Positions 28,712 through 29,317 of a DNA stretch of 34,397 bases are shown one piece after another. Below the pieces are notes generated by a model. The model saw only the letters and a list, made by a program, of their open reading frames with translations. It did no database searches and was not told the DNA's origin. Position numbers and translations under genes: made by a program. Source of the DNA: Aquificaceae bacterium (GTDB lineage Bacteria; Aquificota; Aquificia; Aquificales; Aquificaceae); assembly GCA_015490155.1 (NCBI GenBank), contig WFYI01000106.1, positions 1 through 34,397 of the forward strand, given 5' to 3'. Numbering within the stretch: the stretch's first letter is position 1; every line of letters starts with the position of its first letter.

Positions 28712-29164
28712 TTATTCCTCTTCCTCGGGTTTGACATCTACTTTTATATCAACGCTAACTTCCCTGTGCAGTCTCACGCTGATTGTGTGTATACCTATTT
28801 CCCTTATGCCGCTTTTCATAAGTATATTCTTCCTGTCAAGCTCAAAACCCTTTTCCTTAAGAGCCTGAAGGATATCCGATACGGTAACGGAGCCGAACAA
28901 CTTTCCACCTTCTCCGACCTTTCTCTTTACCTCTACGATTGTACCTTCAAGCTTCTTGGCAATCTTCTGGGCGCTTTCCTTTTCCCTCTCTAACTTGCGC
29001 CTTTTCTGGGCAAGGATATCTCTTATATGCTTCACGTTGCCTTCGGTGGCAGGAAGAGCCAACCCTCGGGGGATAAGGTAGTTATTTGCAAAGCCATCCT
29101 TTACCTCTATTACGTCTCCCATAAACCCGTAACCTTCCAAATCACTTCTTAGTATTACCTTCAT
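28712..29164 (-). CDS. rplI: Ribosomal protein L9
   Basis: 150 residues: the N-terminal rRNA-binding domain (MKVILRSDLEGYGFMGDVIE, NNYLIPRGLA near 27-36), the long connecting helix (about 40-75) and the C-terminal domain. The tail is acidic. It ends the rpsF-ssb-rpsR-rplI operon. The ATG lacks a Shine-Dalgarno sequence and is preceded by a strong hairpin 20 bases upstream, so its translation may depend on structure or on a short ORF in the 153-base spacer. Confidence 0.98.
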   Translation of the reverse strand: MKVILRSDLEGYGFMGDVIEVKDGFANNYLIPRGLALPATEGNVKHIRDILAQKRRKLEREKESAQKIAKKLEGTIVEVKRKVGEGGKLFGSVTVSDILQALKEKGFELDRKNILMKSGIREIGIHTISVRLHREVSVDIKVDVKPEEEE

Positions 29165-29181
29165 AGCTATAACCGTTTATC

Positions 29182-29282
29182 CAGACTGTATGTGAGCTAT
29201 ACAGTCCGGAGCTGGGCTATTTGTACCCCGCCTGTTAAAAGTGTCCACAGACCCAGCGGGCGGCATTTGGACACCTGTATAC
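29182..29282 (-). promoter_or_regulatory. Structured spacer between rpsR and rplI with alternative pairings
   Basis: Several perfect pairings can form in the 153-base gap. Hairpin A is 29184-29191 with 29199-29206 (8 bp, seven-base loop), extendable past one mismatch. Hairpin B is 29241-29247 with 29268-29274 (7 bp). GCTGGG 29211-29216 can pair with CCCAGC 29252-29257 inside the loop of B, a pseudoknot arrangement. CCGCC 29228-29232 can pair with GGCGG 29259-29263. ATACAG in hairpin A can instead pair with CTGTAT at 29275-29280. Such competing pairings suggest a switching leader. I do not recognise a known riboswitch or a tRNA. Confidence 0.5.
29197..29274 (-). CDS. Possible 25-residue leader peptide before rplI
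   Basis: GTG at 29274 is preceded at seven bases by AAGGAGG (29282-29288, minus strand), the best Shine-Dalgarno placement in the operon, although rplI itself has none. The frame runs 25 codons (VSKCRPLGLWTLL at the start) to TAG at 29197-29199. The start codon lies in one arm of hairpin B, and the stop lies in hairpin A. The peptide resembles nothing known. Translating it would disrupt B and reach A, so it could act as a leader ORF. It is short enough to be chance. Confidence 0.35.
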   Translation of the reverse strand: MSKCRPLGLWTLLTGGVQIAQLRTV

Positions 29283-29317
29283 CTCCTTGTACCCATGGTG
29301 ATAATTAGCCTCTAACT

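Follow-up and report, generated by a model that had tools for sequence, protein, structure and literature searches.

The spacer between rpsR and rplI

When the minus strand of the window (the whole analysed stretch of 34,397 nt, contig WFYI01000106.1 of an Aquificaceae bacterium) was examined, the genes were found in the order rpsF (S6), ssb, rpsR (S18), spacer and rplI (L9). The original prediction had read the spacer as a switch-like RNA with a leader ORF that could regulate L9, and the features that it named are present. Two hairpins (P1 and S3) form in the minimum free energy (MFE) fold, a 6-bp pairing (S2) lies in pseudoknot position, and a 25-codon GTG ORF follows its ribosome site AAGGAGG (Table 1). 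The start codon of the ORF is inside P1, its stop codon is at the stem/loop junction of S3, and rplI has no Shine-Dalgarno motif within 20 nt upstream (CTGGATAAACGGTTATAGCT). The competing partners that had been proposed for the same bases hold in part: a 5-bp helix (S1) exists and covaries in relatives, but it need not compete, as it has no base in common with P1 or S2.

Table 1 Features of the spacer and its element in the window
Feature	Position	Strand	Remark
rplI (L9), gene downstream of the element	28712..29164	-	
Whole inserted element (left end of ~5 nt, core, S3, right end AAACGG)	29173..29281	-	inferred borders
AAGGAGG	29282..29288	-	interpreted as the former rplI Shine-Dalgarno, now on the left of the element
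25-codon GTG ORF	29197..29274	-	GTG at 29274, stop 29199-29197; no conserved ORF in other copies
Conserved 67-nt core (P1, S1, S2)	29211..29277	-	covariance-model match of 77.0 bits
P1 hairpin	29239..29276	-	29276-29268 with 29247-29239; S1a and S2a inside its loop
S1 pseudoknot helix	29228..29263	-	29263-29259 with 29232-29228; paired in 77/77 distinct copies
S2 pseudoknot helix	29211..29257	-	29257-29252 with 29216-29211; two-sided changes at 5/7 pairs
S3 hairpin	29181..29209	-	29209-29199 with 29191-29181; in the MFE fold, stem recurs in other copies

The spacer is as organised as had been claimed. Its MFE is -50.9 kcal/mol (z-score -2.47; 1/200 shuffles equally good), and the combined arrangement of P1, S1 and S2, which was searched for and found in the spacer, arose in 18 of 20000 first-order Markov resamples. 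The pseudoknot-free MFE fold contains P1 and S3 plus a local hairpin across the 3' halves of S1 and S2. From 5' to 3' the RNA consists of P1a, S1a, S2a, P1b, S1b, an A-rich linker, S2b and the S3 hairpin. P1, S1 and S2 thus cross each other mutually in the order ABCABC, which is a rare helix topology.

Covariation in related copies, which had been proposed as a check, strongly favoured this structure. Among 77 distinct copies found by the covariance model, 98.0 % of the cells are paired and two-sided changes occur in 310 cells, compared with 74.8 in shuffles (0/500 reached this value) and no more than 75 after sliding of the partners. P1 shows two-sided changes at 9/9 pairs and S2 at 5/7 pairs when an adjacent seventh pair is counted in; S1 shows a C-G/G-C exchange in one of its five pairs and is invariant in the remaining four. 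As the pattern scan fixes most positions of S1 and S2, their covariation was judged on alignment A2, whose rows were found by the covariance model instead; A2 has been fitted to P1 and is biased in favour of that helix. The 60-row alignment A1 excludes seven poorly parsed elements and others with a short P1, and the P1 tallies from the element alignment also exclude the seven. A stem of at least six Watson-Crick pairs is found at S3 in 124/145 copies sorted as short (7.5 % of shuffles) and in 62/64 sorted as long (10 % of shuffles). Judging from these patterns, we regard the structure of three mutually crossing helices and the S3 hairpin as real.

In two copies S2 is nearly all rewritten and still paired (GCAGACC with GGTCTGC in L299 of genome G065, and GCCAGTG with CACTGGC in L302 of genome G074), which strongly supports this helix. 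In addition, the base before S1a co-occurs with the second base after S1b without Watson-Crick pairing (A-A 43 and G-G 34, n = 124), perhaps as a base triple.

Probable insertion before rplI and distribution of the family

When 41 genomes were searched for rplI, 30 loci were retrieved, 29 of them from relatives. A Shine-Dalgarno-like motif lies at most 20 nt from the ATG in all 29, and the core is present in none (0/29, last 200 nt searched). By this comparison, the element of the window was gained in this lineage. The order in the window is AAGGAGG, TATAC, core, S3, AAACGG (ending at 29173) and TTATAGCT-ATG, and rejoining the flanks at GG gives AAGGAGG-TTATAGCT-ATG. Thus, an insertion between the Shine-Dalgarno and the ATG of rplI would explain both the ribosome site without a gene and the gene without a ribosome site.

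The window copy is consistent with insertion at GG, and we infer its exact borders; the right end AAACGG is unlike the ACCAGG of the long forms described below, and the left end has only about 5 nt. The left border is the less certain one. Between the rpsR stop and AAGGAGG there are 29 nt (29289-29317), which may be part of the element or of an older insertion; in the congener (G001) the Shine-Dalgarno comes straight after the rpsR stop. A TATA target duplication was first considered as the insertion signature. This was dropped because IS607 elements make no duplication and because the GG join explains the flanks better.

The spacer belongs to a dispersed family. When it was used as a BLAST query, four places were matched in its own genome, before rplI, hfq, rplU and mreB, and the covariance model added a fifth copy before a DUF2173 gene. 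Matches to the spacer were obtained in 17 of the 41 genomes, its own included. In a covariance-model survey of 136 Aquificota genomes (up to 38 candidates scored a genome), the core was found in 86 (E ≤ 0.001); the congener gave 16 matches and G009, a complete genome, gave 35. Three genomes of the same genus as G009 gave no match of weight (best E 0.18). A DNA pattern retrieved at least 117 stretches with the core, also from thermophiles outside this phylum, so that the phylum spread is a lower bound; among the matches listed are Aquificota, Thermoanaerobacter, Caldanaerobacter, Thermovorax, Fervidicola, Carboxydothermus, Caldisericum, Thermodesulfobacteriaceae and others. Rfam gave no match in the window, and none at the element when nine additional loci were examined. 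One Thermosyntropha locus carries an FMN riboswitch (L050:3668-3785) that is unrelated to the element.

Copies were sorted into long and short forms by regular expressions, which gave 54 long and 79 short in one sorting and 51 and 80 in another. At least eight long forms were left among the short ones (L035, L121, L140, L149, L206, L208, L210 and L216) and L097 was sorted as long although it is short, so the totals for short copies (146, 137 and 13) are approximate.

Long forms with TnpB and an IS607 transposase

In the long forms, which make up 51 to 54 of the roughly 131 copies listed by the pattern scan, extra conserved sequence precedes the core and overlaps the end of a TnpB-like ORF. The protein scores above the NCBIfam cut-offs of TIGR01765 and TIGR01766 and below that of NF040570 (guided TnpB). 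When a six-sequence profile was compared with PDB chains, Cas12f1 and TnpB were matched (E-values 9e-5 and 0.0017), and a fold search with a weak AlphaFold model (pLDDT 63, pTM 0.43) placed Cas12f first; a Pfam search and a single-sequence PDB search gave no useful match. The best PADLOC match is a model named Csx1, across most of the protein length (E-value 4e-52), and this model is probably mislabelled. An IS607 serine transposase (TnpA) above cut-off is encoded directly upstream of the TnpB ORF in G003 and G039. The long form is thus a mobile element in which an IS607-type tnpB has the RNA at its 3' end. At the window copy this is not the case, and neither a TIGR01765 protein nor an IS607 transposase above cut-off was detected in the draft genome of the window (96.5 % complete).

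IS607 elements insert at GG without duplication and have no terminal inverted repeats, according to PMC6188088. For the latter reason we call the element of the window a non-autonomous IS607 derivative and not a MITE. The left ends of the long forms carry the motif AACA(A/G)(C/T)TG. Among the matches listed, 12 long forms have this motif 0.6-2.6 kb upstream, and in 10 of them GG(A/C)GG(G) lies a few bases further left, so that these elements sit within a Shine-Dalgarno (GGAGG|element|ATG). Joining their flanks at GG restores a Shine-Dalgarno-like motif ahead of the downstream start region, as expected for insertion at GG without target duplication. In the remaining two (L135 and L148) the usual A after the motif is missing, and these may be chance matches. 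Almost all long forms have ACCAGG as their right end, and an ATG often follows 4-10 nt later.

The tnpB frame continues through the structured RNA, which is thus also translated as a conserved protein tail (alignment A3, C-terminal tails). Genome G074 alone has 21 TIGR01765 matches, possibly a current transposon burst.

The scaffold was then compared with known IS607 systems. According to the available text of PMC10711439, the reRNA of ISXfa1 requires a pseudoknot, as IS607 reRNAs do; the covariation of S1 and S2 indicates such a scaffold in the present family. By its description, the ISXfa1 system is also alike in its GG crossover and in a fixed right-flanking nucleotide, whereas no leader role is reported in that text. 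The RAGATH-18-type reRNAs (ISFba1), as presented in PMC11061315, likewise combine an IS607 TnpB with a structured, pseudoknotted 3'-side RNA. The TAM of those TnpBs, AGGAG or GAGGG, resembles the GGAGG of the present family, and no TnpB adjoins 36 % of the RAGATH-18 RNAs. In contrast, the present TnpB has about 480 aa and TIGR01765 (about 390 aa there), the present core has three mutually crossing helices, and the present solo copies are conserved mRNA leaders. We rejected membership in RAGATH-18 as there is no Rfam match, the presence of RAGATH-18 in Rfam 15 being taken from the use of Rfam in PMC11061315. The identification of the window element with a portion of a TnpB transposon's guide-RNA scaffold is well supported, and by analogy with IS607 TnpB reRNAs the element would be a putative ligand of TnpB and a guide of cleavage.

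Solo copies as putative mRNA leaders and their origin

All 35 copies in G009 are in the sense orientation, and a start codon follows 8-46 nt past the core. The start-codon control made for the copies is lenient, as 0.54-0.67 of random places pass it. They precede hfq (two copies, the second named by its protein start), infC and ftsH, as well as rpsK, rpsT, rpmF, tsf, rho and others (genes identified by reading protein starts). In G036, ftsH is also preceded by a long form. TIGR01765 is absent from G000, G009 and G014.

In genus g11, a copy precedes htpX in 13/14 genomes (12/13 in one survey, plus G071), the gene being assigned by NCBIfam for L291 and by N-termini for the others. In these 13 leaders P1 shows two-sided changes at 7/9 pairs (23 cells, compared with 6.8 in shuffles and at most 6 when slid), and S1 and S2 are invariant. 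TIGR01765 has no match in seven of these 13 genomes, and in an eighth the only match is below cut-off. In addition, the hfq, rplU and DUF2173 leaders are common to the window genome and its congener, and P1 differs between them yet pairs. Position, conservation and covariation thus indicate that many solo copies persist as structured 5' leaders, also in genomes in which TnpB of this clade is not detectable, and some copies in thermophiles seem to be host-owned mRNA leaders by now.

The number of exact TATAAT boxes is highest at 0-11 nt before P1, with 22 cases compared with 15 in the eight bins that span 18-65 nt (n = 136). Therefore, many leader mRNAs should start at or near P1. A Shine-Dalgarno had been expected left of every short copy, and this was not borne out. 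The short copies as a class have no excess on the left (11/80, compared with 8-15 in control stretches), nor have the copies of G009 (7/35, compared with 3-9). A motif like the right end is found in 57/146 copies sorted as short (22.9 by chance).

We consider it likely that the spacer carries the 3' scaffold module of a thermophile IS607 TnpB reRNA (omegaRNA) as a solo copy that is non-autonomous, that this copy split AAGGAGG from the rplI ATG, and that solo copies have been kept as 5' leaders. In the proposed mechanism, IS607 transposases cross over at GG and, in the thermophile TnpB clade, this GG lies within the Shine-Dalgarno, so that elements insert in the sense orientation behind the Shine-Dalgarno and ahead of the start codon, as the window copy would have done before rplI. 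As a structured 5' leader, the element would have transcription beginning at or beside P1, so that the 5' end of the mRNA would consist of a helix and a triple-crossing pseudoknot, presumably shielding it from decay. S3 would end shortly before the start region and leave it open. In the case of rplI, the insertion would change L9 initiation within the operon and probably make it weaker. Against this reading count that neither TnpB nor TnpA was detected in the draft genome of the window, that the window copy has a short left end and a deviating right end, and that the short copies have no Shine-Dalgarno excess on the left and few right-end-like motifs.

Evolution may have run from transposon to leader or from leader to transposon. 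Either direction fits, as there is no general Shine-Dalgarno on the left, right-end motifs are few, and the recurrence of the same leader genes across genera could stem from repeated insertions and not only from descent. The leader would be the older if an ancient host 5' UTR RNA, binding a protein or ligand, had been captured by IS607 TnpB transposons as the right-hand part of their reRNA, keeping the genes behind insertions translated. Leaders kept without TnpB (in G000, G009, G014 and the seven htpX genomes), the missing insertion signature on the left of short copies and the almost invariant core among leaders agree with such a history. We nevertheless think it unlikely, because the window copy is a gain that all 29 relatives lack, because IS607 reRNAs are known to need pseudoknotted scaffolds (PMC10711439, in its available text) and because the leaders have no common gene class and no evident common expression platform.

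Somewhat less probable still is that solo copies are IS607 debris without host function. Copy number does vary sharply (35 in G009 and none in three genomes of its genus), and the window copy takes the Shine-Dalgarno away from rplI. Against this stand the orthologous htpX leaders, with P1 changed on both sides at 7/9 pairs, an invariant core and mostly no detectable TnpB, and the TATAAT peak directly before P1. An L9-specific riboswitch or leader-peptide attenuator, which the structure, ORF and ribosome site had suggested, is highly improbable, as the element precedes rplI in 0/29 relatives and elsewhere many genes unrelated to each other, as an ORF of 20 codons or more that starts within P1 and has a Shine-Dalgarno-like motif is found in only 9/146 copies sorted as short, and as Rfam has no match. 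A general influence of the element on L9 translation is possible. A riboswitch or ribosomal protein leader of any other kind was rejected because the diverse downstream genes suggest no single regulon or metabolite theme, and self-cleaving ribozymes (HDV, pistol and twister) were considered and gave no Rfam match.

If the spacer is a scaffold module of a TnpB transposon, IS607 TnpBs would have a second family of reRNA scaffolds, whose triple-crossing fold is unusual. This would explain why an RNA-guided transposon is able to persist ahead of essential genes, as it lands in the Shine-Dalgarno and replaces it with its right end CCAGG. The RNA part of a Cas12 ancestor would have turned into a host leader, and guide-RNA domestication without nuclease would become testable. 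Some mRNAs, E. coli ompA among them, carry stabilising stems at their 5' terminus, and the helix predicted at the 5' end of the present leaders is alike; those are single-gene hairpins, whereas the present ones are a dispersed pseudoknotted family. TldR proteins, TnpB-derived RNA-guided repressors, are another case in which parts of TnpB systems were domesticated by cells or phages (PMC13418256, in its available text), with the difference that the protein survives there as a repressor, whereas the present family retains the RNA and lacks the protein.

As stated in PMC10278001, the guide of TnpB is made from the mRNA that encodes it, which suggests that leader mRNAs could enter TnpB where it is present, with the gene start as guide. 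For IS200/IS605 elements in plasmids, PMC11870625 describes TnpB as acting in a gene drive against element-free alleles. A broader reading, plausible though somewhat short of probable, is that TnpB guide-RNA scaffolds were domesticated without nuclease as a genome-wide class of pseudoknotted 5' leaders in thermophilic bacteria (35 in one 1.5-Mb genome), seeded by a Shine-Dalgarno-targeting transposon, and that, with TnpB present, leader mRNA could also guide against element-free alleles of its own gene. In the literature on TnpB or IS607 together with Shine-Dalgarno, leaders, domestication, MITEs or thermophiles that our search covered (most subscription journals lie outside it), no such report was found. 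By title and abstract, none of the papers listed for Shine-Dalgarno together with TnpB treats the Shine-Dalgarno as a TnpB-transposon target, and the word 'ribosome' is absent from the main text of PMC11061315.

A minor observation was made on the copies of G009 (L225-L256). About 10 of the 35 cores are near-identical and their S3 hairpins are different, as if the cores had been homogenised or recently copied without S3.
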